A stretch of DNA of 25,311 nucleotides from a virus, in IMG/VR virus record IMGVR_UViG_3300043357_000086, positions 1 to 25,311 of that record; one strand, given 5' to 3'. A model generated the notes under the pieces. The model was not told the origin of the DNA and searched no databases. It saw nothing but the letters and a program-made list of their open reading frames with translations. Position 1 is the stretch's first letter. Every line of letters starts with the position of its first letter. Made by a program: the position numbers and the translations under genes. This document shows positions 3,961-23,802 of this stretch, piece after piece.

Positions 3961-4006
3961 CGCCCCACCCCGTCGTGCATACGCGCATGGCGTGGAGAGG
4001 GAAACC

Positions 4007-4624: not shown

Positions 4625-4854
4625 TGGCCAAGACGCCGATAAAATTATCAGATGGCCTGGTGAATGCCGGTAAGCGCCCCGCACTCGGGCCAACTACCGT
4701 AGGTCGGGTCTATCCTATGATGCTCTCGGTCCGCGTCGATCCGGCGTTGCTCGACGAGGTGAAGGACCTCGCGCATGCGCGGCGGCTGAAAATCCAGGAT
4801 GCGGTGGACGAGATGATGCGCAGCTGGGTGCGGACCAACGGCTCACGGCGCTAA
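4624..4854 (+). CDS. Ribbon-helix-helix protein, likely ParA partner
   Basis: The 76-residue protein starts at the ATG overlapping the parA stop (TGATG), with GGAGGGG just upstream inside parA. Residues 32-38 (MMLSVRV) form a beta strand, and 40-72 read as two helices (PALLDEVKDLAHARRLKIQD and following), the CopG/MetJ-type ribbon-helix-helix pattern. The first 30 residues are a basic, flexible arm. In type Ib systems such proteins bind centromere repeats and repress the par operon, so the likely role is centromere binding. The gene carries a copy of the dispersed motif (4691-4702), read as Pro-Thr-Thr-Val-Gly. Its DNA target is not known; the dispersed motif and the iterons are both candidates. 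Confidence 0.75.
   Translation: MAKTPIKLSDGLVNAGKRPALGPTTVGRVYPMMLSVRVDPALLDEVKDLAHARRLKIQDAVDEMMRSWVRTNGSRR
4691..4702 (+). repeat. Motif copy inside the RHH gene
   Basis: CAACTACCGTAG within coding sequence, read as Thr-Thr-Val in the gene's frame. Confidence 0.75.
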
Positions 4855-6818: not shown

Positions 6819-8228
6819 CTAGGTCCACCCGATGGATGGCGGGGCCACCGTCGGGCGGCGCACGGACATACGCAGCACTCTACCAGTAATATTAGTGGCT
6901 ACTCCAAGTGCAGCATAAGTAAGACAATCTGCTACGTCAGACCAGGGGTGTAGCTTCTCTGGTATTTCTTCCATCTGGCCGTCGCGCTTCCTGCGGTAAC
7001 GGTAGCGGTCGCCCAGCGCCTTCACCAGCGTCGGGCACAGCGCGCGGTTGATCTGCAGGGCGGGCTCGCCCTGGATGGTCCCGCGCAGCAGCTTCTCGGC
7101 TGCCATCAATCGCGGCGCGATCGCGTTCGTCGAGGCGGGGAAACTATGCAGGCCCAGAGCCTTCAAAGCCTCTATGGGGGTCTCCTCGGTGACCTGGCTG
7201 CGCTGGTTGCCCGCCGGGTCGGCCACCACGAAATGGTTCTTGCCGGCGTAGGGCTCCTGCAACAACCGTGGTCGCAGACGCTCCTCGACCATCTGGATCA
7301 GGCCCATGTCTTCCGTACATATTTCTTCAAAAACCAACAATCGCCCTAACGCATCAACCTGGGTGATCAGGCAGGTTGGGGTGCGGCCGAAATCGAAGGC
7401 GACCATGATCGGGCGATGCGGGTTGACCACGACTTGCATGTCGCGGACATGGGTGGGTGCGTGAAAAGAACGTCGGAACACCGCCTGACCGGCGTTACTG
7501 GTGCCCCACTGGCTCTCGACATGCACCGCCGCCCACTCCGCGTCGCGGCCGTTCATCAGGTCGTCGTAATACGCCGACGGTAGGTTGGCGAGGTTCTCGC
7601 CCTGCGGCGAGATTCCGCTGGGCTGGTGGAACAGCGCCCAGCCCGGCGTCGGGTTGAGGACGAATTTCTCGTGGTAGGGCGAGTCCGTGTCCCACGGGTT
7701 GCTGTCGGCGATAAGCCCGTACCAGCTGGGCGCGCCGTTGAGCTTGGAGGGGAAACGGCCGAGGCGGCCGAGCAGGGGCGCCACTATATCTAATGGCACC
7801 TCGCGCAGCTCGTTGATCCAGGCGCCGGTGAGCTGCATCGACAGCAGGCGCCGCTGGTCCTCCTTGGTGTCGAGCGGGATGAGCATGATGTCGGCCTCGA
7901 TGCGGGTGCCGTCGGGCATCGGGGCGCGCAGCCTTATGGTTGAGTCAGTGACGAAATAACTGATCATGGGCCGCAGATATTGCTGGATATCGGAGAGAAC
8001 AGTTGTTCTCAGTTGCTGCATCGTATTCCTAACAACTGCCCACCTTGTGGTGCGCACGCCGCCCCAGGGCGCCTGCAGGCGCGAGCGGCGGAGGATCTCG
8101 ACGATGCAGCCCATCGACTTGCCCGAGCCGACCGGGCCGACCAGCGCGCGCACGCGCGCGTCCGAGAGCATGAACTGCTCGACCGTGGGGGGTGGGACGT
8201 AGTTGAGGCTGCCCGCGTCGAGCGGCAT
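6819..8228 (-). CDS. terL: Terminase large subunit (packaging ATPase-nuclease)
   Basis: The 469-residue protein has an N-terminal ATPase domain with Walker A GPVGSGKS at 31-38 and a Walker B-like GAWINE at 135-140 ending in the catalytic Glu. An RNase H-like nuclease domain follows, with acidic residues in VAFDFG (Asp279), VVADPAG (Asp337) and HPWSDVAD (Asp431), the usual three-aspartate arrangement. TerL docks on the portal, pumps DNA into the prohead and cuts concatemers. Its length fits the family. The ATG overlaps the terS stop by one base (TGATG). The C-terminal 20 residues are basic. It is transcribed away from the portal gene, so packaging and head genes are divergent here. Confidence 0.95.
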   Translation of the reverse strand: MPLDAGSLNYVPPPTVEQFMLSDARVRALVGPVGSGKSMGCIVEILRRSRLQAPWGGVRTTRWAVVRNTMQQLRTTVLSDIQQYLRPMISYFVTDSTIRLRAPMPDGTRIEADIMLIPLDTKEDQRRLLSMQLTGAWINELREVPLDIVAPLLGRLGRFPSKLNGAPSWYGLIADSNPWDTDSPYHEKFVLNPTPGWALFHQPSGISPQGENLANLPSAYYDDLMNGRDAEWAAVHVESQWGTSNAGQAVFRRSFHAPTHVRDMQVVVNPHRPIMVAFDFGRTPTCLITQVDALGRLLVFEEICTEDMGLIQMVEERLRPRLLQEPYAGKNHFVVADPAGNQRSQVTEETPIEALKALGLHSFPASTNAIAPRLMAAEKLLRGTIQGEPALQINRALCPTLVKALGDRYRYRRKRDGQMEEIPEKLHPWSDVADCLTYAALGVATNITGRVLRMSVRRPTVAPPSIGWT

Positions 8229-8801: not shown

Positions 8802-11078
8802 ATGCCCGAGGCGATCCCCGGCCGCTCGCAGTCCTCCCTGCCCGTGGGCTCCGTCGCACGCGCCGGGCCCGGCGGGTCCTATCCCAATGGACGGGGCTTG
8901 CTGCGGGTGGTCACCAGCGATGAGCTGACGCGCCGCGAGAACGAGCGGCGCATCGGCGCGGGCGCGGGGACGGCCAACCGGCTGACCAAGCCGGTGCCCG
9001 ACATCGGCGCCTATATCCGCCGCCAGTGGACGATCTTCCGGGACCACCGGAACCAGGGTAACAACCCGCTCAATAATCGCCTGCTCCGGGCGCAGCGCAT
9101 GTTCGAGGGCAAATACGACCCCGAACGCCTCGCTGCGATCCGTCAGTTCGGCGGGTCCGAGGTGTACGCGCGCCTCGTCGCGGTGAAGTGCCGGGGGGCG
9201 TCTTCACTGCTGCGCGACGTATATCTCGGGCCCGACCGACCCTGGGACATCCAGGCCCAGCCCGACCCGCCGGTGCCGCCCGAGGTGCAGAAGGCGGCGA
9301 TGCAGCTGGTCGCCGGCGAGGTTGCCACACAGGTGCAGGCGCAGCAGCCGATACTCCCCGAGCAGGCCAAGACCCGGCTGCAGTCGCTGCTGCATGCCGC
9401 ACAGCAGGCGGCGGCAGCGAACGCCAACGACCAGGCTGACCGCGCCGCCGACGCCATCGAGGACCTTCTGGTCGAGGGGCGGTTCTACCAGGCGATGGCG
9501 GAGTTCCTGGTCGATGTGCCGCTGTTCCCGTGGGCCTGCATCAAGGGCCCGACGGTCAGGATGGTGCCGAAGCTGTCCTGGACGCCGAACAAGGACGGCA
9601 GCAAGACCGCCTCGATCGAGCGCAAGGCGCAGATGTTCTGGGAGCGGGTCAGCCCGTTTAACCTCTACTGGACCCCCGGTGTGTCCAACATCGCCGACGC
9701 CGCCATCATCGAGCGGCATCGCTTCTCGCGCACCGACATCAACGACCTGATCGGGCTGCCCGGCTACGACGAGCAGGCCATCGCGGGGGTGCTGGAGGAT
9801 TACGACCGCGGCCTCAGGGAGTGGCTGGATAGCCCCGACGCCGAGCAGGCGATCAACGAGAACCGCGAGGACCCCAACCTCAACCGCTCCGAGATGATCG
9901 AGGGGCTCGAGTATCACGGCAACGTCCAGGGCCAGATGCTGATCGACGCGGGGATGAGCCCTAAGCTGATCAAGGACCCGCTGCGCGAGTACAACGTCCA
10001 GTCCTGGGTGATCGGCCGCTACACGATCAAGACCCTGCTCAACCCGATGCCGACCCAGCGCCATCCCTACTATCTTACCAGTTTCGAGAAGGCCCCCGGC
10101 ACCGTGGTTGGGCACGGGCTGCCGGATTTGCTGGAGGATATGCAGGAGGTGTGCAACGCCTCGTTGAGAGCGTTGGTGAATAATATGAGTATAGCTTCAG
10201 GGCCGCAGGTGGTCGTCAACGACGATAGCCTCTCCCCGGCCGAGGATGGCAACCAGCTGTATCCGTGGAAACGCTGGCATATCCAGGGCGACCTGTTCAC
10301 CAACCAGCGTGAGCCGATCACCTTTTTTCAACCCCAGTCGAATGCCCAGGAGCTGCTCTCGGTCTACACCGCGATCAGCAACATGGCCGACGAGATCTCG
10401 GCGATACCCCGCTACATCACCGGTAGCTCGCAGGGGCTGGGGGGTGCGGGGCGCACCGCCTCGGGCCTGTCGATGCTGATGGGCAACGCGGAGAAGGTGC
10501 TCCAGACGGTGGCGGCGAACATCGACGGGGACATCATGGACCCGTTGCTGAGCCAGACCTACGACCTGGTGATGATGACGGACCAGACCGGGATGCTCAC
10601 CGGCGAGGAGGAGATCCGCGTCCGCGGCGTCAACGTCGCGGTGCAGAAAGAGACCGAGCGCCAGAAGCAGCTCCAGTTCCTGCAGATCACCGCCAATCCG
10701 ATCGACGCGCCGATCGTCGGCGAGATGGGGCGCGCCCGCGTGCTGCGCTCGATCGCGCAGGGGCTCGGCCTGCCCGACAACGTGGTCCCCTCGGACCAGG
10801 AGCTGCAAGCCAAGCTCGATGCGCAGAAACAGATGCAGGCCGCCAGTCAGGCGATGCTTGCAGCCTCTGGCGCCGGCCAGCCGGGAGACGCCAATCCCCC
10901 CGGCGGGAAACCGGGGCAGCCGGGGCCACCGGCGGGTGGCAAGCCTGGGACGACTCCCGCCGGTGGCGCCCCGCCCGCCGCACACGCACAGGGACAGCAG
11001 GCGCCCACGCCGGGTCCCGCGCAGCTCGAAGACCACGCGCCCCGCGTCAATCTCATGCAGCAAGGGATACCGAAATAA
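8802..11078 (+). CDS. Portal protein
   Basis: The 758-residue protein lies opposite terS/terL and heads the structural operon. An extended N-terminal arm with DIGAYIRRQW is followed by a core rich in the patterns of podovirus and P22-like portals (for example FPWACIKGP near 245, PYYLTSFEK near 425 and the TASGLSMLMGNAEKVLQ segment near 555, typical of the portal crown-stem region). Residues about 185-230 are a Gln/Ala-rich helix, and the last 90 residues are a Pro/Gly-rich disordered tail. The dodecameric portal is the DNA channel and the docking site for terminase and connectors. GAGG lies 7 bases before the ATG. The stop overlaps the next start (TAATG). Portal identity is firm; the exact subfamily is not. 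Confidence 0.9.
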   Translation: MPEAIPGRSQSSLPVGSVARAGPGGSYPNGRGLLRVVTSDELTRRENERRIGAGAGTANRLTKPVPDIGAYIRRQWTIFRDHRNQGNNPLNNRLLRAQRMFEGKYDPERLAAIRQFGGSEVYARLVAVKCRGASSLLRDVYLGPDRPWDIQAQPDPPVPPEVQKAAMQLVAGEVATQVQAQQPILPEQAKTRLQSLLHAAQQAAAANANDQADRAADAIEDLLVEGRFYQAMAEFLVDVPLFPWACIKGPTVRMVPKLSWTPNKDGSKTASIERKAQMFWERVSPFNLYWTPGVSNIADAAIIERHRFSRTDINDLIGLPGYDEQAIAGVLEDYDRGLREWLDSPDAEQAINENREDPNLNRSEMIEGLEYHGNVQGQMLIDAGMSPKLIKDPLREYNVQSWVIGRYTIKTLLNPMPTQRHPYYLTSFEKAPGTVVGHGLPDLLEDMQEVCNASLRALVNNMSIASGPQVVVNDDSLSPAEDGNQLYPWKRWHIQGDLFTNQREPITFFQPQSNAQELLSVYTAISNMADEISAIPRYITGSSQGLGGAGRTASGLSMLMGNAEKVLQTVAANIDGDIMDPLLSQTYDLVMMTDQTGMLTGEEEIRVRGVNVAVQKETERQKQLQFLQITANPIDAPIVGEMGRARVLRSIAQGLGLPDNVVPSDQELQAKLDAQKQMQAASQAMLAASGAGQPGDANPPGGKPGQPGPPAGGKPGTTPAGGAPPAAHAQGQQAPTPGPAQLEDHAPRVNLMQQGIPK

Positions 11079-11278: not shown

Positions 11279-11589
11279 TGGCGAAAGTCCATCTCGGCAA
11301 CCCGTATCGGGCGCCGCCCGCGTCCATCACCGCCGGCGAGCCGCTGAACCGGGTGATGGGCCAGTACGGCAAGAACGCGCCATCGGTCGCGGGCGCGCCG
11401 CTGGTGAGCATCGCCCTGGGGTCGCTGGTGCCGTTGCTCAACACCCCACGCAAGGGCGGTCCTACCGCGATGCGCGGACTGAAGGGCGGCATCGGCCCGC
11501 GTGTGAAACAAGGCGGCCTCGGCCCCGGCAAGCTCGGCGGCTACGGCAGCTCGCGCCAATACGACAAGAACCCGTTGGGTGATGGATGA
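11278..11589 (+). CDS. Basic Gly-rich protein, 103 aa
   Basis: The 103-residue ORF starts at the ATG overlapping the previous stop (TGATG). It is very rich in Gly, Pro, Arg and Lys, with repeated KGG and GGLGPGKLGGYG patches and few acidic residues, so it is probably disordered and nucleic-acid or capsid associated. Function is not recognised. The stop overlaps the next start (ATGA), keeping the operon gap-free. Confidence 0.65.
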   Translation: MAKVHLGNPYRAPPASITAGEPLNRVMGQYGKNAPSVAGAPLVSIALGSLVPLLNTPRKGGPTAMRGLKGGIGPRVKQGGLGPGKLGGYGSSRQYDKNPLGDG

Positions 11590-11858
11590 TCAATATCGGC
11601 AATGATGGCGTCACCGCCTGCAAGAACCTCAAGGGCAACGAGTTCTGGGACACGCTGCGCGCCCAGATCTACCGCGTCGCGGTCGAGCGCACCGATGCGG
11701 CACTCAGCTCCGACCCCGCCGCCCGCGTCGACCTTACCGCCTATGCCCGCGCGATCCGGGACCTGTGGGTCGCGGTGGAGAGCGCCACGCTGGAGGTCAA
11801 CTACCGGCAAATCGAGAAGCCCAGCCGCCCGATCATGACGAAGGCCGCAAATGTCTGA
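11586..11858 (+). CDS. Hypothetical helical protein, 90 aa
   Basis: The 90-residue protein begins MINIGNDGVTACKNLKGNEF and is mostly helical and of normal composition, unlike its Gly-rich neighbours. The pattern EFWDTLRAQIYRVAVERTD looks like a small folded domain. It starts within the stop of the previous gene (ATGA) and its 3' end overlaps the scaffold start by 8 bases. I do not recognise it; position suggests a head-assembly or accessory role. Confidence 0.7.
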   Translation: MINIGNDGVTACKNLKGNEFWDTLRAQIYRVAVERTDAALSSDPAARVDLTAYARAIRDLWVAVESATLEVNYRQIEKPSRPIMTKAANV

Positions 11859-12894
11859 CACGACCAAGTTCGCTCCTGCCGTCCCCGCCGCCGTCCGCCG
11901 TCAGGCGGAGGCCGCCGACGAGGCTGTTCGCCAGCTGCAGGCGGAGCAGGATGCGAACCGGGCCGAGACATCTCCTGGCGCTCCCGAGGGAACTCCATCT
12001 CCCCCCTCCGAGCAGCCGGAGAGTCCTGCCGGCTCTCCTCCCGGTTCACCACGGGACGGAGCTGCGGCGGGGCCTGCTCCCACCCCAACTCCGGGTGGAC
12101 CCCAGGAGGAGGGGTGGGAGCAGCGTTATCGCACGCTAAGGGGCAAATACGACACCGAGGTGCCGACGCTGCAGAACCAGCTGCGCACCCTTGAGCGGAC
12201 TATGACCGAGTTGCAGCTGCAGCTGCAGAACCCGCCGCCTCCGCCACCGTCAACTCCGGTAGTCAAGCCGGTGCCGATCTCCGACGAGGACATCGAGGCA
12301 TACGGCCCGGAGCTGATCGACCGCGCCAGGAGCTGGGCGCGGGCCGAGCTGATGCCCGAGATCGAGCAGCTGCGCCACGACGTGGTCAGGGCCAACGGCA
12401 CCGCCCAGAACGTCCAGTCCCAGGCGGCGATGCAGTCCGTCTACAACTTCATGGACCAGAACCTGCCGAGCTGGAACGATATCAACACCGACCCGCGGTT
12501 TATCGAGTGGCTGCGCGGCACCGACCCGCTCTCGGGTTCGGTGCGGCAGAACATGCTGAGTGCGGCTTTCCTGTCCGGGGATGCCCGCCGCACTCTGAGC
12601 TTCTTCAGGGCATTCCAAACCGAGCATACCGAGGACCACTTCCAGCCGGGGACGACCCATACGTATGCCAATGGCAGCGCGGGTGCAGTCAGGCTCGAGG
12701 ATATGGCGGGACCAGGGCGTGGTGCCCCAGTCTCTCCCGGCGCTCCTGCGACCAAGCGGCATGTAACCCAAAAGGACATCGCCGACTTTTATTCGGCCGT
12801 AACGAAGGGACGTTTCAACGGGCGCGACGCCGAGAGGCAGCGCATCGAGCAGGAACTCCATGAGGCCGTGTACGAGGGGCGCGTCCGTAATTAA
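11851..12894 (+). CDS. Scaffolding protein (likely)
   Basis: The 347-residue protein has the features of a phage scaffold: it lies just before the major coat gene and has an acidic, Pro/Ser/Gly-rich disordered N-terminus (about 35-90), a central coiled-coil with Gln/Leu heptads (about 100-128, for example NQLRTLERTMTELQLQLQ), and a helical charged C-terminus with basic residues (KRHVTQKDIADFYSAVTKGR) like the coat-binding helix-turn-helix of scaffolds. Scaffolds direct coat assembly and then leave the prohead. An AAGG just upstream serves as SD. Similarity is by architecture, not by motif. Confidence 0.75.
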   Translation: MSDTTKFAPAVPAAVRRQAEAADEAVRQLQAEQDANRAETSPGAPEGTPSPPSEQPESPAGSPPGSPRDGAAAGPAPTPTPGGPQEEGWEQRYRTLRGKYDTEVPTLQNQLRTLERTMTELQLQLQNPPPPPPSTPVVKPVPISDEDIEAYGPELIDRARSWARAELMPEIEQLRHDVVRANGTAQNVQSQAAMQSVYNFMDQNLPSWNDINTDPRFIEWLRGTDPLSGSVRQNMLSAAFLSGDARRTLSFFRAFQTEHTEDHFQPGTTHTYANGSAGAVRLEDMAGPGRGAPVSPGAPATKRHVTQKDIADFYSAVTKGRFNGRDAERQRIEQELHEAVYEGRVRN

Positions 12895-12906: not shown

Positions 12907-13863
12907 ATGGCTGTCGTCTATCCCGTTGCCGCAACGCCATATTCTGGCGCGCGGCCCGTCCCCGAATACTCGGGTATCTTTATTCCGCAGATCTGGTCAG
13001 GGAAGTTGATCGAGAAGTTCTATTCTGCAACGGTCCTGGCGGCCATCGCCAACACGGATTACGAGGGCGAGATCAAGAACCAGGGCGACACTATCCACAT
13101 CCGCACCAAGCCCACCATCGCGATCAACGACTACCAGGCCGACATGCCGCTGACCGTGCAGCGCCCGTCGAGCAACATGGTCGACCTCCAGATCACGCAG
13201 GGGAAGTATTTCAACTGCGTGCTCGACGACGTGATGGAGACCCAGGCCGACCTCAACCTGCTTTCGATGTGGTCGGACGACGCCTCCGAGCAGATGAAGA
13301 TCAAGATCGACACGGCCGTGCTGGCGACGCTGGACGCGGGAGTTGATGCCAACAACAAGGGCGCCACGGCGGGGTTGATCTCCGACGACATCGTCCTCGG
13401 GGTCACCGGCACGCCGGTCTCGCTGACGCCGTCTACGATCCTTGGGCATATCGTCGACCTCGGCACCGTGCTCGACGAGCAGAACATCCCCGAAACGGGT
13501 CGGTGGATGGTCTTACCTCCATGGGCGGCCGGGATGGTGAAAAAATCCGATCTGCGTGACGCCTCGATCAGCGGTGACGGCGTGTCGCTGATGCGCAATG
13601 GGCGTCTCGGCATGATCGACCGGTTCACGCTGTATGCGTCGAACCTGCTGCCGACCGCGGTCGAGGGCACCACTAAGGCGTATCGCATCTTCGCCGGCCA
13701 TCCGCACGGCCTGACCTTCGCCAGCCAGGTTTCCAAGGTCGAGACGCTCCGCAGCGAGCAGACCTTCGGCACCCTGCTGCGCGGGCTGCAGGTCTACGGC
13801 AGCAAGGTGCTGGACGGGATCGCTATCGCCGAGCTTTACGCGGTCAAGGGGGCTGGTCCATAA
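12907..13863 (+). CDS. Major coat protein
   Basis: The 318-residue protein follows the scaffold gene by 12 bases, with a good SD, AGGAG, six bases before the ATG. It has an even composition and segments such as IFIPQIWSGKLIEKFYSATV, GDTIHIRTKP and VLPPWAAGMVKKSD that are typical of the HK97-fold coat family used by podophages and siphophages. A coat protein is expected at this place and should be the most abundant virion protein. No cysteine-rich or signal segment is present. The next gene follows after a 31-base gap that holds a motif copy. Confidence 0.85.
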   Translation: MAVVYPVAATPYSGARPVPEYSGIFIPQIWSGKLIEKFYSATVLAAIANTDYEGEIKNQGDTIHIRTKPTIAINDYQADMPLTVQRPSSNMVDLQITQGKYFNCVLDDVMETQADLNLLSMWSDDASEQMKIKIDTAVLATLDAGVDANNKGATAGLISDDIVLGVTGTPVSLTPSTILGHIVDLGTVLDEQNIPETGRWMVLPPWAAGMVKKSDLRDASISGDGVSLMRNGRLGMIDRFTLYASNLLPTAVEGTTKAYRIFAGHPHGLTFASQVSKVETLRSEQTFGTLLRGLQVYGSKVLDGIAIAELYAVKGAGP

Positions 13864-16047: not shown

Positions 16048-18276
16048 ATGGGTATTATGTTCGGTAATAACGCCCTGTCGACGCTCACCGTGTCGCTGTT
16101 CGCGGGCGAGACCACGCTCATCATCGACGCGGCGGATGCGGCGGCTTTCCCGCAGCCGTCGGCGGTGGGCGATTACTTCCTCGTCACCGTCGAGGATTTG
16201 AAGCAGACGCCGATCCAGCGCGAGATCTGCAAATGCACCGGGCGCACGGGTAACCTGTTTACGGTGGTTCGTGCCCAGGAAGGGTTCGCGGCGAAGGATT
16301 TCACCGTCGGCACAACGACCGTGTCCAACCGCGTGACCGCGGCCACGATGAACATGGCGATCAACCTGCTGCCGCCGGCCGACAGCAAGGTCTACGGCCA
16401 GCAGCTAACTACCGTAGGCGGCGTCCCCACCTTCGTCGAGGTGCTCACCACCCAGGGCCAGCTGACCTTCGGCGGGCCGATCGGGATCGGGAGCACGCCG
16501 CCTGCCGGGACGCCGTTGGCGACGCTCTATACCAACGATGTTTCTCTCAACGGCAATATCGGGTTCAACCAGGTCTGGAACTCCACGGGTACACCGGGGT
16601 GGCGATACCGTGTCGCCGGCGCCGGGGCGCTGTGGGGGTTCGATCCCACCCTCGGGCAGCTCGCGGCCTCGATGTCGCCTTCCGGCGCGGCGGGCGCGGC
16701 CGTGACAGGCACCGTGAGTGCGCTGCGGATCAATGCCAAGGGCCAGGTCGCGGGAGCTAATGTCGGACTGCCGCTTGCCGATGACACGCGCTACACCTGG
16801 ACGGCGGACAACTTCGCCCTCGAGCCGGGCGGCTATTTCGCTTTCAATACCTACCTTGGGGCGGGAAGCGTCTGGAAGACCAAAGCCGCCGGCTATAGCG
16901 GCCTTATGTCTTTGGACACTGCCTCTGGAAACCTGAATTTCTTCGTCAACCCGTCAACCTCCGCCGGGACTGCCGTTTCCCTGACCCTCGCCTCGATAAT
17001 GATGCCGTCGGGCGCGTTGCAGGTGCAGAATACGATTTTCGCGAACAAGGGCATCGCGTTCGGCAGCTTCAACAGCTGGGAGTATCAGGCTTACGTCACC
17101 ACCGGCGGCGACCACATCCTGGCGCATCGTGCGGGCTGGTATGACCAATGGCAGAGTTCCGGCGGGTCCACGATCTGGGTCCGGTCCAGCGCCAACGCGA
17201 TGGTGCTCTATGGCAACGGTGACCTGACGGTCGCGGGCGCGCTGCGGTCGACCAACGCGGCGGCGGGTGTCTGGGCGTCGAGCGACAATTCGCACGGGCA
17301 CTACACTTCGGGCGGCCGGTGGAAGGTCTGGCAGGTTTCGGCGGATGGCTGGCGTGTGCAGTGGGACGGCTCGAACGGGCAGCTCGCCTTCGTCAACCAA
17401 GCCGGTCAGATACTCTGGTCCGTCGACGGCAGCGGCAATGTCTGGGCCAGTGGGAACTACACTACCGGCACCGATATCAGCGTCCGCTCGCTGTATGCGA
17501 GCGCCACGGTGCAGGGGAACTACCTCTACTCGACCGGCAACATTCAGGCCAATGCCGACGTAAATTGCAGCCGGAACATATGGGTCGCGGGTACGGTGAC
17601 CTCCAACGTCATACACGCCACTGCGATGCTGTATGGCGACCAGAATGGTCAGTTCGCTGGCAACGTCGTCTCCAACGCCGCGTTCGCGCCCGCTGGATTT
17701 TTTGTGGGCGCGAACAACGATACCAGCTGGGGAATGTATTCCGCCAGCGGGCAGCGCATCTTCCAGTTCGGCTCGGGTGGTTGGTATTGGCAGTGGGACA
17801 ATAACTCGGGGACGCTGATCTGGTGGAAGGGCAACCAGCATTTCTGGGTCATGCGCACCAGCGACAACTTTGCTTACAACGAGCTTGGGGCGGTCGGCGG
17901 CAACGGCGCCTATGCCAACTTTTCCGACCGCCGTGGCAAGGACGCGATCACCCCCACCGAGCGCGGCCTCGCCGAGGTGTTGCAGCTTCATCCCGTCGAG
18001 TTCATCCGCGTTCCGCATCCGGAGCCGCAGGCTGGGGACATCGTGCCCCAGGCGATCGTCCCGCGCACCGAGATCGGGTTCGTCGCGCAGGACGTGGCAA
18101 TGGTGGTGCCCGAAGCGGTGGTGGTCATGGGGGCGGCGTTGCCCGACGGCACCGGCACTCTGGCCGATCCCGAGCCGTCCCTGGGGATGACCTACGACAC
18201 GATCGTTGCGATCATGGTCAATGCGATTAAGGAACTTAATACGCGCATCGTCGCGCTGGAAGGAGGGGCGCCGTGA
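16048..18276 (+). CDS. Tail fibre with S74 autoprocessing chaperone domain
   Basis: The 742-residue protein has a virion-anchoring N-terminus (1-115; LFAGETTLIIDAADAAAFP), a long central Gly/Trp/Asn-rich beta region with repeated phrases such as WQSSGG, VWQVSADGWRVQWD and WYWQWD, and a C-terminal intramolecular chaperone of the Peptidase_S74 type. Ser626 and Lys631 of SDRRGK match the Ser-Lys catalytic dyad spacing known from endosialidases, where the domain folds the trimer and cuts itself off. The central repeats suggest a trimeric beta structure that meets the host surface. AGGGAACG precedes the ATG. A motif copy lies inside (16406-16418), read as Thr-Thr-Val-Gly. Confidence 0.85.
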   Translation: MGIMFGNNALSTLTVSLFAGETTLIIDAADAAAFPQPSAVGDYFLVTVEDLKQTPIQREICKCTGRTGNLFTVVRAQEGFAAKDFTVGTTTVSNRVTAATMNMAINLLPPADSKVYGQQLTTVGGVPTFVEVLTTQGQLTFGGPIGIGSTPPAGTPLATLYTNDVSLNGNIGFNQVWNSTGTPGWRYRVAGAGALWGFDPTLGQLAASMSPSGAAGAAVTGTVSALRINAKGQVAGANVGLPLADDTRYTWTADNFALEPGGYFAFNTYLGAGSVWKTKAAGYSGLMSLDTASGNLNFFVNPSTSAGTAVSLTLASIMMPSGALQVQNTIFANKGIAFGSFNSWEYQAYVTTGGDHILAHRAGWYDQWQSSGGSTIWVRSSANAMVLYGNGDLTVAGALRSTNAAAGVWASSDNSHGHYTSGGRWKVWQVSADGWRVQWDGSNGQLAFVNQAGQILWSVDGSGNVWASGNYTTGTDISVRSLYASATVQGNYLYSTGNIQANADVNCSRNIWVAGTVTSNVIHATAMLYGDQNGQFAGNVVSNAAFAPAGFFVGANNDTSWGMYSASGQRIFQFGSGGWYWQWDNNSGTLIWWKGNQHFWVMRTSDNFAYNELGAVGGNGAYANFSDRRGKDAITPTERGLAEVLQLHPVEFIRVPHPEPQAGDIVPQAIVPRTEIGFVAQDVAMVVPEAVVVMGAALPDGTGTLADPEPSLGMTYDTIVAIMVNAIKELNTRIVALEGGAP
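16406..16418 (+). repeat. Motif copy inside the S74 fibre gene
   Basis: TAACTACCGTAGG in coding sequence, read as Thr-Thr-Val-Gly. Confidence 0.7.
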
Positions 18277-18467
18277 TCAATCTTCTCATATATATCTTAA
18301 TATTGCTGATTATCTTCAGCGTGATTTTTTACATCATCCGTCTCATTCCGTTGCCGCCACCGTTCGGGGTCGTCGCGCAGGCGGTCGTGGGATTGATCCT
18401 GTTACTGATCCTCATCGATATGTTGCTGGGCGGCAGGTTCGTGGGTTTTCCGCGGTATGGGCCATGA
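18273..18467 (+). CDS. Two-span membrane protein, holin-like candidate
   Basis: The 64-residue protein starts with GTG inside the fibre stop (GTGA). It has two hydrophobic segments, residues 3-23 (NLLIYILILLIIFSVIFYII) and about 32-52, joined by LIPLPPPF. This two-helix layout with a Pro-rich turn matches the Thivi_2564 membrane-protein type commonly found in phages, whose function is not established. Two spans of this size would suit a class II-type holin, and the location just before a papain-like lysis candidate supports that, but it is inference. Confidence 0.8.
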   Translation: MINLLIYILILLIIFSVIFYIIRLIPLPPPFGVVAQAVVGLILLLILIDMLLGGRFVGFPRYGP

Positions 18468-18508
18468 CCGGCAACCCCTTCACCCACTCCATGACGGTGT
18501 TCCGATGA
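18464..18508 (+). CDS. 14-codon bridging ORF
   Basis: MTGNPFTHSMTVFR starts at the ATGA overlapping the membrane-protein stop, and its own stop overlaps the ATG at 18505 in another ATGA. It exactly bridges a gap in an otherwise coupled series, which supports a role in coupling translation rather than a protein function. It could also be a chance arrangement. Confidence 0.35.
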   Translation: MTGNPFTHSMTVFR

Positions 18509-18882
18509 CCTTCATCGCCGAAGACACCCATGCCCGCCTGGGCGAAGCCGTCGGCAGTGGCCATTGCATGGCGCATGTCCAGGCCGTCGCCGGCGTGGGC
18601 CACTCCTCGACCCTGCACCAGGGCGAGAAGGTGCGTGGCAACGAAATCCCACCCGGCACCGTGATCGGCACCTTCGATGCCACCGGCTGCTACGCCAACG
18701 CCACCGACGGGTCGAGCCATGTCGCCGTGTTGGTCGAGCAGACCAAGGATGGGCTGAAAGTGGTCGATCAATGGCAAGGCCAGCCCGTGCACGAGCGGCT
18801 GATCCGGTTCAAGGGCGGTCGAGGTCCCGCCTGCGACGATGCCGATCAGTACCATGTGGTGGAGGCAGTTGAAGCCGCATGA
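18505..18882 (+). CDS. Papain-like (BPSL0067-type) amidase candidate, lysis
   Basis: The 125-residue protein matches the BPSL0067 pattern: a Cys in GSGHCMAHVQ (Cys21), a TVIGTFDATGCY strand, then His72 in GSSHVAVLVEQ and KVVDQWQGQPVHER. Cys and His in this spacing are the likely catalytic pair of a papain-fold, CHAP-related hydrolase, consistent with cell-wall cleavage during lysis. The ATG at 18505 is preferred to one at 18457, which would add 16 residues unlike the family. The SD is weak and initiation probably relies on coupling. Adjacent membrane proteins on both sides fit a lysis cluster. Confidence 0.7.
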   Translation: MTFIAEDTHARLGEAVGSGHCMAHVQAVAGVGHSSTLHQGEKVRGNEIPPGTVIGTFDATGCYANATDGSSHVAVLVEQTKDGLKVVDQWQGQPVHERLIRFKGGRGPACDDADQYHVVEAVEAA

Positions 18883-19144
18883 TCCCAAATTCTCCATGCT
18901 CCGGGCCGCGTTCTGGCTGCTCGCCGCCGTCGTGGGTGTGCAGCTTGTGGTCACTTTCGGTGTCGGTGCCGGTTGCCTCTGGCTGGTCATATCCGGCGCC
19001 TACCGCATCGGCGCCTGCGAGAACGTCAGCGGCCAGATCCGCGAGGTCTGGGCCGAAGCCATGGCGGCGATCCTGGCCCTGCTGCTCGCCGCCGGCGCCG
19101 GGCCGAAGCCGCCCGCCCCGCCACCAACGGGGGACGAGCCATGA
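18854..19144 (+). CDS. Small membrane protein with coil, 96 aa
   Basis: The protein has about 12 polar residues, then two hydrophobic helices (AAFWLLAAVVGVQLVV and GAGCLWLVISGAY), an amphipathic stretch GQIREVWAEAMAAILALLLA and a Pro-rich tail. The GQIREVWAEA part resembles small phage membrane proteins often found beside lysins; holin, spanin or accessory roles are possible. The start is uncertain: ATG 18839 or 18854, both overlapping the previous gene in another frame. I use 18854 because it gives a compact N-terminus. Confidence 0.6.
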   Translation: MWWRQLKPHDPKFSMLRAAFWLLAAVVGVQLVVTFGVGAGCLWLVISGAYRIGACENVSGQIREVWAEAMAAILALLLAAGAGPKPPAPPPTGDEP

Positions 19145-19218
19145 CAACGTTCGTCCAATTCCGTCCGTGCCGACCTCATCAACCAGAAGGAACTAATCAA
19201 TGGCTACTGTTCGCATAA
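19141..19218 (+). CDS. 25-codon ORF in leader of next gene
   Basis: A 25-codon ORF begins within the previous stop (ATGA) and ends 19 bases inside the 19200 gene, in another frame. Such an overlap could couple the two genes. The protein (MTTFVQFRPCRPHQPEGTNQ and onward) has no recognisable features. The 19200 gene has its own strong SD, so this may be only a leader. Confidence 0.25.
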   Translation: MTTFVQFRPCRPHQPEGTNQWLLFA

Positions 19219-19781
19219 CCGGTGGCGTCCTCAACGTCGAAACGGTCGGCACTCCCGACCATACGCTTCCAGGCGGTGGTGAAGGCCCGGTCGATCCGGG
19301 CTACGGCGTGCCCGAGGGGCATCCCGACCACAGCCTCCCCGGCGGCGGCCTGGGCATCTGGGGCGGTGGCAACAAGCCCGGCCACGACCTGCCGGGCGTC
19401 CCCGGCAGCGGGCGCCCTGACCACGCCTTGCCGCCCTTCGCGGCCCAGTTGCCGGAACTGCCGTCGCGCCCGCCGGGCTACCCCGACAACTCGCTCCCGG
19501 CGATCCCCACGCAGCCGATCTACAATCCGGTCTATCCGATGCAGCCGATCTACTACCCACCGGAGGGTACTCCGGAGCACCCGATCGTCCTGCCGCCGCC
19601 GGGCGCGATCTGGCCGCCTTTGCCCAAGCCGCCCGAGGAAGCCGAGGTGATTATTGCGATCGTGGGTATCCCCAACGCCGGGTGGTTCTACGTCGCTCTC
19701 GATCCGAATGCGGTGTGGCCCGCGCAAGGCTTGCCTGGGCCACAGCCGGGTGGCCCGGAAGTTGATCCAACACGCCGTTAA
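19200..19781 (+). CDS. Pro/Gly-rich repeat protein, 193 aa
   Basis: The 193-residue protein is built from degenerate repeats of PDHxLPGGG: PDHTLPGGG, PDHSLPGGG, GHDLPG, PDHALPP and PDNSLP, spaced by about 20 residues over residues 18-100. A Pro-rich linker (PTQPIYNPVYPMQPIYYPPE) follows and then a small beta-type domain (about 145-180). Repeats of this kind suggest an extended, flexible virion protein. GAAGGAAC precedes the ATG at 19200. Function unknown. Confidence 0.7.
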   Translation: MATVRITGGVLNVETVGTPDHTLPGGGEGPVDPGYGVPEGHPDHSLPGGGLGIWGGGNKPGHDLPGVPGSGRPDHALPPFAAQLPELPSRPPGYPDNSLPAIPTQPIYNPVYPMQPIYYPPEGTPEHPIVLPPPGAIWPPLPKPPEEAEVIIAIVGIPNAGWFYVALDPNAVWPAQGLPGPQPGGPEVDPTRR

Positions 19782-19796
19782 CGGAGACCAATACAC

Positions 19797-19820
19797 GGGC
19801 GCGGGGGCAACCTCGCGCCC
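19797..19820 (+). terminator. Hairpin between 19200-19781 and the PEP-CTERM gene
   Basis: GGGCGCG, a 10-base loop and CGCGCCC form a 7-bp GC-rich stem. There is no U-tract; the SD of the next gene follows at once. It may be an attenuator or insulating hairpin at a module boundary rather than a full terminator. Confidence 0.4.
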
Positions 19821-19833
19821 ATAGGAGGCCGTC

Positions 19834-20583
19834 ATGCGATCCCTCGTCGTTACCGGCGTCATCGCCTCTGCTGCGTTCAGCGCCGCCATCGCCCTCTCGC
19901 CGCATCCCGCCCACGCGACGCTACAAATCGCCGGCACGATCAACGGCGTTAACTTCCTCTGCGTCGATAACGCCGCGTGCGATCTCAATGGCGCCACCGG
20001 CACGATTGAATTGGCGAACCAGATCATCGGCGGCATCACCGTTGATGGCAGCATCCAGACATCGCGGGGTACACCGGCTAATCCGGGGCCACTCGATATC
20101 CTCAACACGTCGTCACTGAGCATCATAAACTCTACTGCGAGCACGATCACGGGCGCGGTGGCAGTGAGCGATACCAGCTTCACGGCACCCGTGTCGTCGG
20201 TTGCCCTCTCAGCGTCAGGCGTGTGGGAGACAGCAGTCGGCAGCAGTGCGACATTGCAATGGTACGCTGACACGGCGAACGCACAGGGTGCGGATAATGC
20301 CACCGACGCACCCGGCACACTGTTGGATACGTTCGTGTCCACTGCCGTCGTGGTGGCAGACAGCCTCTCGGACAACAACACTGCGCCGTTCTCCGCCCTC
20401 GCACCGTTCTCCATGACGGAAACGGTCAACTTCTCGCTGACATCAGGCGGAACGCTGCTCAATCGCGGCCAGACCATGCTCGCCGCCGTCGATACCCCGG
20501 AGCCGGCTTCCATGGCGTTGCTATGGGCAGGGCTGGTGGCGCTGGGCGTCGTTCGCCCGCGCGTGCGGGTCCGGGGCTCATGA
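19834..20583 (+). CDS. Exported PEP-CTERM protein, likely moron
   Basis: The 249-residue protein has a Sec-type signal peptide (1-28: a basic start, a hydrophobic run and the AHA cleavage-type site), a long Ser/Thr/Ala-rich beta region, and a C-terminal DTPEPASMALLWAGLVALGV stretch followed by RPRVRVRG. Pro-Glu-Pro, a hydrophobic span and an Arg cluster is the sorting signal recognised by bacterial exosortases, which process such proteins at the inner membrane for surface export. In a phage this is unusual: the gene is likely a moron acting on the lysogen surface. A strong AGGAGG precedes the ATG, a hairpin lies upstream, and base composition is visibly less GC-rich than its neighbours. Confidence 0.75.
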   Translation: MRSLVVTGVIASAAFSAAIALSPHPAHATLQIAGTINGVNFLCVDNAACDLNGATGTIELANQIIGGITVDGSIQTSRGTPANPGPLDILNTSSLSIINSTASTITGAVAVSDTSFTAPVSSVALSASGVWETAVGSSATLQWYADTANAQGADNATDAPGTLLDTFVSTAVVVADSLSDNNTAPFSALAPFSMTETVNFSLTSGGTLLNRGQTMLAAVDTPEPASMALLWAGLVALGVVRPRVRVRGS

Positions 20584-20592
20584 CTCTGTGAT

Positions 20593-20606
20593 CAACTACC
20601 GTAATT
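20593..20606 (+). repeat. Motif copy before the 20620 gene
   Basis: CAACTACCGTAATT followed by AGGAGG and the ATG at 20620, on the right-hand side of the PEP-CTERM gene. Confidence 0.85.
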
Positions 20607-20619
20607 ATAGGAGGAACCA

Positions 20620-20817
20620 ATGCCGCAACCGAACGTGCAACTCGCGACCCCGCCCGAGGTCCCGCTCGGGGTCACCTTGACCTTTGCCGAGTGGCAGATG
20701 GTGGTAGGCCAGCTCGGCCAGGGGCCGTATCAACAGGTCGCGGCGCTGATCGACAAGATCTCGCGCCATGTCAGCCAGCGCATCGAGGAGTTCCACGCCA
20801 AGCAGGAGAGCGCGTGA
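20620..20817 (+). CDS. Hypothetical protein, 65 aa
   Basis: The 65-residue protein opens with a Pro-rich stretch (PEVPLGVTLT), then an amphipathic helix (YQQVAALIDKISRHVSQRIEEF), likely a coiled-coil or oligomerisation element. AGGAGG lies 6 bases before the ATG and the motif lies just upstream. It starts the run of six coupled small genes ending at 22020. I do not recognise it. Confidence 0.7.
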   Translation: MPQPNVQLATPPEVPLGVTLTFAEWQMVVGQLGQGPYQQVAALIDKISRHVSQRIEEFHAKQESA

Positions 20818-21116
20818 TGGCCAAAGCCAATCCGTTCGCGGCCAAGGGCAAGGCAAAGGGGGCGGGCGGCAACCCGTTCGCCAAGGGAAGGGTGCCGACG
20901 ACCAAGGGGCCGCCCGCCAATGATCCGCTCGCGGCGGGCGGGGGCGGCGGCCCGCCGATCCCTATGGGGCCTGGTTTCGCCAAGGGCGGCAAGGTCGACC
21001 CGTGGGACAAGACCTCACGGGGCAAGAAGGATGCCGCTTTCGACAAGAAGATGGGCATCAAGCCGGGTTCTGCGACCGACAACAAGATCGACCGCCTCGT
21101 CAAGGGGAAGCGGTGA
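20817..21116 (+). CDS. Small basic KGG-type protein, 99 aa
   Basis: The 99-residue ORF starts at TGATG inside the previous stop. It is very rich in Lys, Gly and Pro, with GFAKGGKVDPWD at about 58-69 and repeated NPFAAKG/NPFAKG units near the start. It is probably disordered and positively charged. The (A/K)GGKV motif recurs in the 21288-21695 protein, so this is a local protein family. It may bind DNA or line the capsid; that is inference. Confidence 0.7.
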   Translation: MAKANPFAAKGKAKGAGGNPFAKGRVPTTKGPPANDPLAAGGGGGPPIPMGPGFAKGGKVDPWDKTSRGKKDAAFDKKMGIKPGSATDNKIDRLVKGKR

Positions 21117-21286
21117 AACGCGGCGGCTCGATCAGGCGCGTGGCGGGCAAACCCATCGGCAAGGATGACGGGCTGATCCCGGCGCAGGTCGGTGAGTATG
21201 TCATCCGCAGGAGCGCGGTGAAGAAGCTCGGCACCAAGGCGCTCGACCGGATCAACAAGGGGAAGCTCCCGAAAGGAGCGCGCTGA
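21113..21286 (+). CDS. Small protein with IPAQVGEYVIRRSAV, 57 aa, GTG start
   Basis: The 57-residue protein starts with GTG inside the previous stop (GTGA). The stretch DGLIPAQVGEYVIRRSAVKK is a pattern seen in many phage small proteins and in some tail proteins (PAxxxxGEYVVRxxA), usually annotated as hypothetical. It is basic. The ORF could be read from further upstream, but no other start has an SD; the GTG fits the coupled-overlap pattern of this operon. Confidence 0.7.
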   Translation: MKRGGSIRRVAGKPIGKDDGLIPAQVGEYVIRRSAVKKLGTKALDRINKGKLPKGAR

Positions 21287-21287
21287 G

Positions 21288-21695
21288 ATGGCGAATAAAT
21301 CAGGGCTCATGTCTGGCGACATTCCGGACAACGCCACATGGGCTAAGGGCGGCAAGGTCCATAAGGTCCGCAAGGTCAAAGGCTACGACGGTGGCGGCTT
21401 CGTCGAGGGCATGACCGGCATGATGTCGGCCATCGGCCAGGGCTACGACATGATGAACAAGGTCAAGAAGGCGCGGAAGGAGAGCGGCTCGGATACGTCC
21501 TCGGTGGCCAAGGACTCCGTCGCGGCGGGCTCGTCCGTGTCCAAGACCGACCCGCAGGATACCGCGACCCCCAAGTCTAGCGCGCCGCCGCGGGTCAAGG
21601 ACGACGACGCCGGCTCCACCAGCTTCGCCAGGGGCGGTAAGGTCAACCGGGTGATGGATCACCGCAGCCAGTACATGAAGAAGGGAAAACGCTGA
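21288..21695 (+). CDS. KGG-motif protein with two repeats, 135 aa
   Basis: The 135-residue protein carries WAKGGKVHKVRKVKG near the start and FARGGKVNRVMDHRSQYMKK at the end: two related (A/K)(K/R)GGKV units flanking a Gly-rich middle and a Ser/Asp-rich disordered segment. GAAAGGAG precedes the ATG. The shared units suggest duplication within the protein or ties to its 20817-21116 neighbour. Function unknown. Confidence 0.7.
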   Translation: MANKSGLMSGDIPDNATWAKGGKVHKVRKVKGYDGGGFVEGMTGMMSAIGQGYDMMNKVKKARKESGSDTSSVAKDSVAAGSSVSKTDPQDTATPKSSAPPRVKDDDAGSTSFARGGKVNRVMDHRSQYMKKGKR

Positions 21696-21841
21696 TGGTC
21701 GGGCATGTCGTCAGGAACCGCCTCGCGGCCGAGGCCGCCGAGGCCAGGAAGGAGGACGCGGCGCATCACCGGGCCGCGCCCAAGAAGAAAGTGCCCGACA
21801 AGCCGGAACCCAAGGCGGCCGAAAAAGGGAAGGACAAGTGA
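21695..21841 (+). CDS. Small charged protein, 48 aa
   Basis: A 48-codon ORF starts at the TGATG overlapping the previous stop and ends in the TGATG of the next gene. It begins MVGHVVRNRLAAEAAEARKE and is rich in Lys, Ala and Glu, with an amphipathic Ala helix and a basic tail (PKKKVPDKPEPK). Its place in an unbroken series of coupled genes is the main support; it is too short for a standard gene finder. Function unknown. Confidence 0.6.
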   Translation: MVGHVVRNRLAAEAAEARKEDAAHHRAAPKKKVPDKPEPKAAEKGKDK

Positions 21842-22020
21842 TGGCGAAAGGTAAAGGCAAGACGCGCTCGTCGGGCAGTGGCAGCCCGTCGTTCAACTCC
21901 GGTGGTTCCGGCGGCAGTTCGCTCAGCCAGCGCGCGATCCCCGGCCCCGCCAGCACCGGTGGCCCGGTCTCGCTGAAGAAGGCGCTGGCCAAGAAGGCGC
22001 CGCGTGGAAAGGGCATCTGA
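21841..22020 (+). CDS. Small Ser/Gly/Lys-rich protein, 59 aa
   Basis: The 59-residue ORF starts at the ATG overlapping the previous stop (TGATG). It begins MAKGKGKTRSSGSG, very rich in Gly, Ser and Lys, and ends KKAPRGKGI. It is likely disordered and DNA or capsid associated, as with its neighbours. The next gene follows after a symmetric motif. Function unknown. Confidence 0.65.
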   Translation: MAKGKGKTRSSGSGSPSFNSGGSGGSSLSQRAIPGPASTGGPVSLKKALAKKAPRGKGI

Positions 22021-22024
22021 AGGG

Positions 22025-22037
22025 AATTACCGTAATT
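22025..22037 (+). repeat. Symmetric motif AATTACCGTAATT overlapping a start codon
   Basis: A perfect odd palindrome around a central C, with the last two bases being the first two of the TTG start (22036) of the next gene. The SD GAAGGG lies just upstream, so a bound protein would cover the ribosome-binding site. Confidence 0.75.
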
Positions 22038-23802
22038 GCCGGCACTCGTCCTCAAAGGCTTCGGCGGCACCATCCCACGGATGAACCCGCGTTTGCTGCC
22101 CGACGTGCAGGCGTCGGAGGCGTGGAACTGCGACCTCGATAGCGGCGCCATCGCCGGGCTGCCGATGCCCAAGCTCATCAAGGATTTGACCGGTGCACTG
22201 CCCGGCAAGACGGTGAAGAAGGCGTATCGCCTGCCCGCGCCGCCGCCAGGCGGGCCGGATGCCTGGCTGCCGCTGCCTGACGAGGCGTCGAGCGTGGTGC
22301 GTTCGCCGCTTACCAATGACAGCCTGCACCGGATCTACTGGACCAACCCGAACGACGGTGCCTACTGGAGCACCTACGCGATGATCACGGCGGGCACCCC
22401 GCCATATAATCTCGGCTTCATCGCGCCCAGCACGTCCTATTCGCTTACTGTCTCGGCGTCCGGGGGAACTACCGACGGCAGCCTGCCGCTGGTGTCGCGC
22501 ACCTATTTGTTCACCTACATCGACACCTACGGCGAGGAGAGCAGCCCCTCGGGTCCCTCGGCGGTGGTGACTGGCGCCAGCGACGGTAATTGGACGATCT
22601 CGGGGATACCGACCGCACCGCCCGCCGCCGTGGCGGGCAAGAACTACCCGGCGGTCGCCCGCGTGCGCCTGTATCGCACGGTCACCGGCCAGAACACCGG
22701 GGCGCAGTTCTATCAAGTGCAGGAATGGCCGCTCCCGTCGGGGCCGGCAGGCGGCGTGTTCGTGGACACCATCGCCGACAGCCTGATCGTCTACTCCAAC
22801 CCGCTGCCTTCCTCGTCCTGGGCATCGCCGCCCGACGGGCTTGACGGGCTGGTCGCGATGACCTCGGGGATGCTGATCGGGTTCACCGGCAACACCGTGC
22901 ATTTCTGCGAGCCCAACCGCCCGCACGCATGGCCCGCCGCCTATGATCTCTCGGTGCAATACCAGATCGTGGCACTCGCGGTGTGGCAGCAGAGCCTGAT
23001 GATCCTGACGCAGGGATACCCCAGCAGCGGGACAGGCAACACCCCGGCCAATTTCGTGCTCAGCCAGATCCAGGTCGCCGAGCCGTGCATCGCGCGCAAC
23101 TCGGTGGTGACCGACCTTCTGGGCGTCTACTATGCGAGCCAGAACGGCATCCAGGTGCTGACCTATTTCGGCATCCAGAACCAGACCTTGCAGCTGATGA
23201 GCAAGAATATCTGGATGAATAAGTTCGAAGCCAACAGCATCAGCGCCTGCCGCCACCGCCAGCAATACCTCGCGGTGATCGACGACGGCACCGGTTTCAT
23301 CATCGACTACGCCGAGAACCGCCTCGGCCTGGTGCAGCTCAGCACCGTGGATGGCGTCGTCTCGGTGTGGAACGATGTCTACACCGGCGATGCCTACATG
23401 ATGCAGAAGGAGAAGGTCTATCTATGGGACGGCCCTTACGAGCCGCCGCTGGCGTATCGCTGGAAGTCCAAGGAGTTCTACCTGCCCGCGCCGGTGAATT
23501 TCGCCGTCGTGCAGGTCTCGATGTCCGACTACGTCTACGGGTTGCCTGCGCCGCCGATCATCAATCCGTTGGCCAGCCCCATAAATGTCGGCGAGACCGA
23601 GCTGCCTGACGGCGCGCTGGCGATCTTCCGGGTCTATTTCCACTACCAGCTGGTCTACCAGACCTGGCTGACTTCGCCGCGGCCGATCTTCAAGCTGCCG
23701 TCCGGGTATAAGGGTTTTACCTGGCAGTTCGAGATCGTCGCGCGCGTGCCGATCTACTCGATCGAGATCGCCACCACGGCGCAGGAGCTGAAGGGGGTCT
23801 GA
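22036..23802 (+). CDS. gp10-like tail or DNA-stabilisation protein, 588 aa
   Basis: The 588-residue protein starts with TTG, decided by the SD GAAGGG (22019-22024) and the lack of an SD before the next ATG (22081). Its body has features of the gp10-type tail-hub/packaged-DNA stabilisation proteins of podophages: an N-terminal RLLPDVQASEAWNCDLDSG part, a middle with YIDTYGEESSPSGPS, and the region GNTVHFCEPNRPHAWPAAYD with a following VALAVWQQSLMILTQ, in which beta-propeller-like repeats are usual. It would attach to the connector and stop DNA leakage. Confidence in the exact role is moderate. Confidence 0.7.
   Translation: MPALVLKGFGGTIPRMNPRLLPDVQASEAWNCDLDSGAIAGLPMPKLIKDLTGALPGKTVKKAYRLPAPPPGGPDAWLPLPDEASSVVRSPLTNDSLHRIYWTNPNDGAYWSTYAMITAGTPPYNLGFIAPSTSYSLTVSASGGTTDGSLPLVSRTYLFTYIDTYGEESSPSGPSAVVTGASDGNWTISGIPTAPPAAVAGKNYPAVARVRLYRTVTGQNTGAQFYQVQEWPLPSGPAGGVFVDTIADSLIVYSNPLPSSSWASPPDGLDGLVAMTSGMLIGFTGNTVHFCEPNRPHAWPAAYDLSVQYQIVALAVWQQSLMILTQGYPSSGTGNTPANFVLSQIQVAEPCIARNSVVTDLLGVYYASQNGIQVLTYFGIQNQTLQLMSKNIWMNKFEANSISACRHRQQYLAVIDDGTGFIIDYAENRLGLVQLSTVDGVVSVWNDVYTGDAYMMQKEKVYLWDGPYEPPLAYRWKSKEFYLPAPVNFAVVQVSMSDYVYGLPAPPIINPLASPINVGETELPDGALAIFRVYFHYQLVYQTWLTSPRPIFKLPSGYKGFTWQFEIVARVPIYSIEIATTAQELKGV

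Follow-up and report, generated by a model that had tools for sequence, protein, structure and literature searches.

The DNA analysed here (the window) is a 25,311-nt stretch of a soil phage, IMG/VR virus record IMGVR_UViG_3300043357_000086. It carries genes for terminase, portal, capsid, tail fibre and a PHROG-511 virion protein. The gene that encodes an exported PEP-CTERM protein (table 1) stands in the late region, with a Pro-rich gene on one side and small genes on the other. The reading frame, start and stop given in the earlier note were correct. Rfam and tRNA searches gave no match. G001 (60,690 bp), the closest relative of greater length, matches the window at 94-99% identity in the main aligned blocks. 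The nearest isolates, Rhizobium phages RHph_TM27A and TM3_14A (MN988461, MN988472), resemble the window in backbone and gene order (portal 52%, capsid 62%, PHROG-511 protein 33%) but have no PEP-CTERM gene in the corresponding region.

Table 1. Features of the window, and second PEP-CTERM genes in related viral loci.
Feature	Record	Position	Strand	Basis or remark
ParA-like gene	window	3992-4624
Terminase	window	6819-8228	minus
Portal	window	8802-11078
Capsid	window	12907-13863
Tail fibre	window	16048-18276
64-aa transmembrane protein, holin-like	window	18273-18467	+	sequence; L022 and L067 have a similar protein next to their PEP gene
Small Cys/His protein	window	18505-18882	+	possibly a lysis enzyme; no match in Pfam or PHROG; 96% identical in L021
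Pro-rich protein, PDHxLP repeats	window	19200-19781	+	travels with the PEP-CTERM gene; 94% identical in L021 (other backbone)
Segment swapped between window and near-identical G001	window	19366-19795		blastn and alignment
Hairpin, GCAA loop	window	19797-19820	+	immediately ahead of the Shine-Dalgarno; lacks a T run
Shine-Dalgarno of PEP-CTERM gene, ATAGGAGG	window	19821-19828	+
CDS, exported PEP-CTERM protein (P0001), 249 aa	window	19834-20583	+	61 viral loci with relatives; dN/dS
Predicted Sec-type signal peptide, residues 1-28, AHA before T	window	19834-19917	+	sequence; model helix 3-20; layout of relatives
Predicted beta-sandwich body, residues ~31-219	window	19924-20490	+	AlphaFold model; alignment A2; VIA-align Z 8-9
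Putative PEP-CTERM sorting signal: TPEP, helix 225-243, Arg-rich end	window	20494-20580	+	PEP at 20497-20505
Shine-Dalgarno of next gene, ATAGGAGG	window	20607-20614	+
PHROG-511 virion protein	window	22036-23802
Second PEP-CTERM protein	L029	10663-11379
Second PEP-CTERM protein	L037	5816-6511
Second PEP-CTERM protein	L039	10654-11424
Second PEP-CTERM protein	L049	5447-6184
Second PEP-CTERM protein	L051	10705-11490
Second PEP-CTERM protein	L056	1809-2468
Second PEP-CTERM protein	L059	9215-9970
Second PEP-CTERM protein	L061	10663-11436

Signals, fold and surroundings of the gene

The protein starts with a predicted signal peptide, MRSLVVTGVIASAAFSAAIALSPHPAHA followed by T, which has a positive n-region and a hydrophobic core. 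This layout is common to all intact relatives, and A28, where the peptide would end, is invariant across the family. The tail, TPEPASMALLWAGLVALGVVRPRVRVRGS, contains P222-E223-P224, a helix (225-243) and the basic end RPRVRVR, as the earlier note had read it. Judged from its sequence, the protein has the claimed architecture of an exosortase substrate (signal peptide, PEP, helix, basic end). The description of the body as Ser/Thr-rich is fair wording, but AlphaFold predicts an ordered beta-sandwich (mean pLDDT 85.7), modelled with confidence and flanked by two helices (3-20 and 225-243). The body holds a conserved cysteine pair, CVDNAACD (alignment A2). In fold searches the modelled sandwich resembled carbohydrate-binding modules, and the best VIA-align matches were glycan-binding sandwiches and phage receptor-binding domains or tail spikes. 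Nothing in the fold search stood well above background, and the Z scores of about 8-9 may reflect a common arrangement only. The body is under purifying selection, with a dN/dS of 0.11 against the nearest relative (L020) and 0.15 against the next (L021); values are given for close pairs, farther ones being near synonymous saturation. On the minus strand a 438-aa open frame (19197-20513) overlaps the gene and is most likely a GC-rich shadow frame.

The hairpin noticed upstream is real (z -3.4; no shuffle equalled its score). Its stem, GGGCGCGG/CCGCGCCC, also precedes the gene in L020 and L021, the two closest relatives, where the loop differs, and the hairpin may act in translation control or form an mRNA end. 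The supposed motif copy downstream is ATAGGAGG, the Shine-Dalgarno of the next gene; a repeated regulatory motif was rejected, both copies being Shine-Dalgarno sequences. Lower GC, taken earlier as a sign of acquisition, was also rejected: the gene has 63.3% against 63.9% for the window, which puts it at the 38th percentile among windows of 750 bp.

Phage morons and superinfection-exclusion envelope proteins are accessory genes that change the envelope. The window gene is like them in being accessory, missing from same-backbone relatives and predicted to change the envelope, and differs in its proposed sorting by a host exosortase and in having no promoter or terminator of its own. No sigma-70 pattern was found in 17900-22200, no terminator-like site flanks the gene on its strand, and a PrsR/sigma-54 site is absent upstream. 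Of the claim that the gene is a phage moron, the accessory character thus stood and the autonomy did not, given its late-operon position. Because it has neither promoter nor terminator of its own, the window gene falls outside the strict definition of a moron, although the gene of promoter-bearing relatives (below) could be one. The lysogeny assumed with the claim found no backing either, as neither the window nor G001 contains a tyrosine integrase, only a ParA/RHH pair; an integrase is present in 5/45 PEP-bearing or related records. From this pair of a ParA and a ribbon-helix-helix (RHH) protein (3992-4854), found without an integrase, the window phage may persist as a plasmid.

A viral family that moves between phages

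A single-protein search found relatives in 19 viral loci and a profile search in 61 IMG/VR contigs, at 30-96% identity. Alignment A2 comprises the 49 members with intact ends. In these, E223 is invariant and P222 and P224 are at least 90% conserved; the ends are mostly of the VPEP type, with variants such as VSEP in L050 and VPEA in L015. Loss of the C-terminal signal was looked for, and every intact relative has kept both a PEP-CTERM-type tail and a signal peptide. Scored alone, the window tail reaches 15.6 bits with PF07589 (cut-off 20.7) and 13.2 bits with TIGR02595 (cut-off 16), so that the window protein stays below both curated cut-offs, which are detection rules and not biological features. 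At E<=0.1, however, PF07589 matches 49/49 members of A2 (best 8.8e-8) and TIGR02595 47/49 (best 4.6e-7), and the weak window tail is therefore not a chance resemblance.

A tblastn search of INPHARED isolated phages and of plasmids gave no relative of the protein, and a GTDB genome scan (alignment A1) returned 51 stretches matching the pattern, none of which was confirmed. Among 399 genomes of one order (around G025) there was no family match at E<=1e-10, an empty result that is weak for want of a known positive, although the profile used does recover the window, at 4.8e-100. The best full-length cellular match reached E = 7e-9 only.

Directly downstream of the family gene, about ten relatives (L029, L037, L039, L049, L051, L053, L056, L058, L059 and L061) encode a further PEP-CTERM protein whose body is unrelated, in most cases from a gene that overlaps the stop codon of the first. 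Most of these partners, and L147, score above 16 bits with TIGR02595. In L137, which has the window backbone, we observed tandem proteins (1248-1958 and 2128-2967) with PEPxxWA-like ends, scoring 29.1 and 20.3 bits against a cut-off of 35; the tail variant there may follow the exosortase type of the host.

The proposed acquisition as a separate unit agrees with the distribution of the gene, which is accessory and moves between phages with unrelated capsid and terminase genes. In the first set of loci with relatives, the packaging, portal and capsid genes of the window were absent except in G001 and, as a distant terminase and portal, in L064; a few of these loci have tail-fibre, Pro-rich or other small genes in common with the window. 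L021 has another backbone yet shares 18509-20545 with the window at 86%, and the segment swapped with G001 is a recombination point just upstream of the PEP-CTERM gene. L147, by contrast, has the window backbone (capsid 70%), but its PEP gene occupies another place and has its closest counterpart (72%) in L043. The family gene is missing altogether from eight loci of this backbone that cover the stretch from capsid to PHROG-511 (L100, L101, L124, L129, L130, L140, L146 and L176). This pattern bears on whether the protein could belong to the virion, as a structural or decoration protein that is made late and bears a sandwich able to bind glycan. Its late-operon position would suit such a role, as would the several fold matches to phage tail spikes and receptor-binding proteins, yet one would not expect a virion protein to have a cleavable signal peptide or a membrane helix at its C-terminus, and the gene is missing from most phages with the same backbone. 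We regard this as very improbable.

The Pro-rich neighbour gave no match in the family search. Similar genes adjoin the PEP gene in L047, L067, L068 and L147; more broadly, L021, L047, L062, L067, L068 and L147, which have different backbones, encode a Pro-rich protein with PDxxLP or HPxHPI repeats next to the PEP-CTERM protein.

Host-type promoters upstream of phage PEP-CTERM genes

For the host system, Haft et al. 2006 (PMC1569441) describe a 17-nt motif ending in TTTACA, a spacer of 32-92 nt and a sigma-54 -24/-12 site, the latter lying some 71 nt ahead of PEP-CTERM genes in hosts. A PrsR plus sigma-54 site is common for PEP-CTERM genes in Proteobacteria and is not required. In an initial scan the regions preceding the phage genes proved enriched in sigma-54-like sites. 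The published pair of TTTACA and sigma-54 site was then found upstream of 13/49 phage members compared with 1/837 other ORFs of the same loci (Fisher 1e-16, with rows that are related) and in 34/9800 random windows; the letters permitted in the sigma-54 filter were fixed after examples had been seen. TTTACA alone preceded 16/49 members and 17/837 other ORFs. The phage motif (e.g. TGTCGGCGCGCTTTACA) is near-identical to that of sampled cellular PEP-CTERM genes (TGTCGGCGCACTTTACA), which have the pair in 9/18 cases (two being duplicates) compared with 1/63 other cell ORFs. Phage spacers measure 40-84 nt, within the published range, and cluster at about 41 and 51 nt, while most cell genes have 41 or 62-66 nt, the clusters lying about one helical turn apart. 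To our reading of these sequences, the host-type TTTACA plus sigma-54 promoter upstream of phage PEP-CTERM genes (13/49) is what is new here.

The 13 promoter-bearing members, whose rows are related, are spread across both halves of the family tree. The pair is missing from the window clade. As this clade branches from within promoter-bearing lineages, the promoter was likely lost when the lineage entered the late operon. Part of the family thus appears to use both the host sorting system and the PrsR/sigma-54 regulon. Because 13/49 members carry a host-type regulatory region, the gene type must have come from bacteria at some time, and we asked how far this favours a bacterial PEP-CTERM gene acquired by chance, or misassigned host DNA, with no role for the phage. 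Such a passenger would be expected to have close cellular homologues, but the A1 genome scan, the 399 genomes at E<=1e-10 and the best full-length match of 7e-9 revealed none. The promoter-bearing contigs checked for hallmarks hold terminase, portal, baseplate, tail, viral polymerase or helicase, or capsid genes; terminase, portal, baseplate, tail or capsid genes stand on the same contigs as the family gene, and purifying selection and recurrence in phages speak for use. A passenger gene is therefore improbable. We consider it quite probable that the family is large and nearly virus-specific, that its products would pass through the host exosortase to the surface or exopolysaccharide (EPS), and that the members which copied the PrsR/sigma-54 region would be switched together with the exopolysaccharide-associated proteins of the host.

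Proposed sorting by the host and possible role

In signal peptide, PEP motif, transmembrane helix and basic end, the family resembles the substrates of the PEP-CTERM/EpsH system as set out by Haft et al. 2006 (PMC1569441), and 13/49 relatives match its TTTACA plus sigma-54 region in order, with spacing in the published range. It differs in being phage-encoded and, for the window copy, in lying in a late operon without that promoter. The words 'phage' and 'virus' are absent from the text of that paper. In the literature searched, mostly judged from titles and abstracts and exclusive of subscription journals, no title or abstract describes phage-encoded exosortase substrates. The best NCBIfam match of the window protein is the flocculation protein PepA (NF033554; Aquincola PepA), likewise an exported PEP-CTERM protein. 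With 18 bits against a cut-off of 80 (residues 112-243, tail included) the window protein is no member. According to two published reports, PepA binds EPS to cells and its overexpression moves EPS from soluble to cell-bound (PMC9850573), and surface proteins require exosortase (PMC12188702).

The neighbourhood of the gene suggests another role, in which a periplasmic beta protein tethered to the inner membrane would act at lysis without being an exosortase substrate, much like a unimolecular spanin. Unimolecular spanins have a beta-rich body plus a C-terminal transmembrane helix, a layout that the protein shares. The window gene has a late-operon position with a holin-like protein nearby, and the gene's neighbours in L025, L029, L032, L010 and L036 are transmembrane proteins or a GH25 lysozyme. 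Intact members have no lipobox, however, their signal peptides ending in AHA or ASA before T, V or A with no Cys; the near-invariant PEP ahead of the helix has no role in spanins; and relatives carry host-type PEP-CTERM promoters, some members being far from lysis genes. We hold a lysis helper to be unlikely.

An exosortase substrate requires a suitable host. Exosortases were detected by PF09721 alone, which divergent exosortases would escape; by this measure none is encoded in the window or in 19 related records. In an alphaproteobacterial sample, profile matches of the viral family were almost all to the tail, and genomes with such tail matches had an exosortase in 25/36 cases compared with 34/289 in the class sample. 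PrsR exceeded its cut-off in 22/26 tested genomes with PEP tails versus 0/12 others. Capsid relatives in bacterial genome records belong to Bradyrhizobium (63-66%) and a betaproteobacterial MAG (63%). PF09721 had no match in the genomes with these relatives, including two Bradyrhizobium, and is found in 8/61 Bradyrhizobium. A related Bradyrhizobium contig in an isolate genome is 60,568 bp long, the size of a whole phage. If the host likewise had no exosortase, the product would simply remain anchored in the inner membrane. In favour of this, the closest relatives of the capsid gene among bacterial genomes come from Bradyrhizobium lacking PF09721. Those relatives are only 63-66% identical and lack the PEP gene, though, and the tail signature has been retained in the family, which leaves a merely anchored product with a small chance.

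We favour, as reasonably probable, the reading that the phage gene is accessory and encodes a substrate for the exosortase (EpsH/Xrt) system of the host. Its basis, established at the sequence level, is the architecture and conservation of the protein, its spread over unrelated phages, the tandem PEP-CTERM proteins whose bodies are unrelated and, among relatives, the promoter of host type; against it stand the window tail below the curated cut-offs, the window copy without a host-type promoter and the capsid-relative Bradyrhizobium without PF09721. The window copy would be transcribed together with the late genes, and its product exported by Sec and then held in the inner membrane through the C-terminal helix. 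The host exosortase would cleave at or near PEP and pass the beta-sandwich, now mature, on to the outer surface or to the exopolysaccharide layer. There the sandwich may bind a surface glycan or EPS and alter how the infected cell is coated, for instance by hindering adsorption of other phages or changing aggregation; the altered lysogen surface that had been proposed is likewise conjectural. In other phages, a family member under a host-type PrsR/sigma-54 promoter would be made when the host activates its own PEP-CTERM genes. Processing, location, glycan binding and phage benefit are the conjectural parts of this reading.

Since exosortase-type tails occur in unrelated phages, some with a host-type switch, phages seem to borrow the surface-coat machinery of their hosts. 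Exosortase substrates are a common and poorly understood part of Gram-negative surface coats. If phages do bring their own, in tandem and partly within the host regulon, they would offer a direct handle on exosortase surface function and represent a further route for phage envelope remodelling in soil. As a minor observation, G001 (L080) encodes, near its ParA region, an exported aspartyl-protease-like protein (11353-12045, minus strand; PF13975/PF13650).
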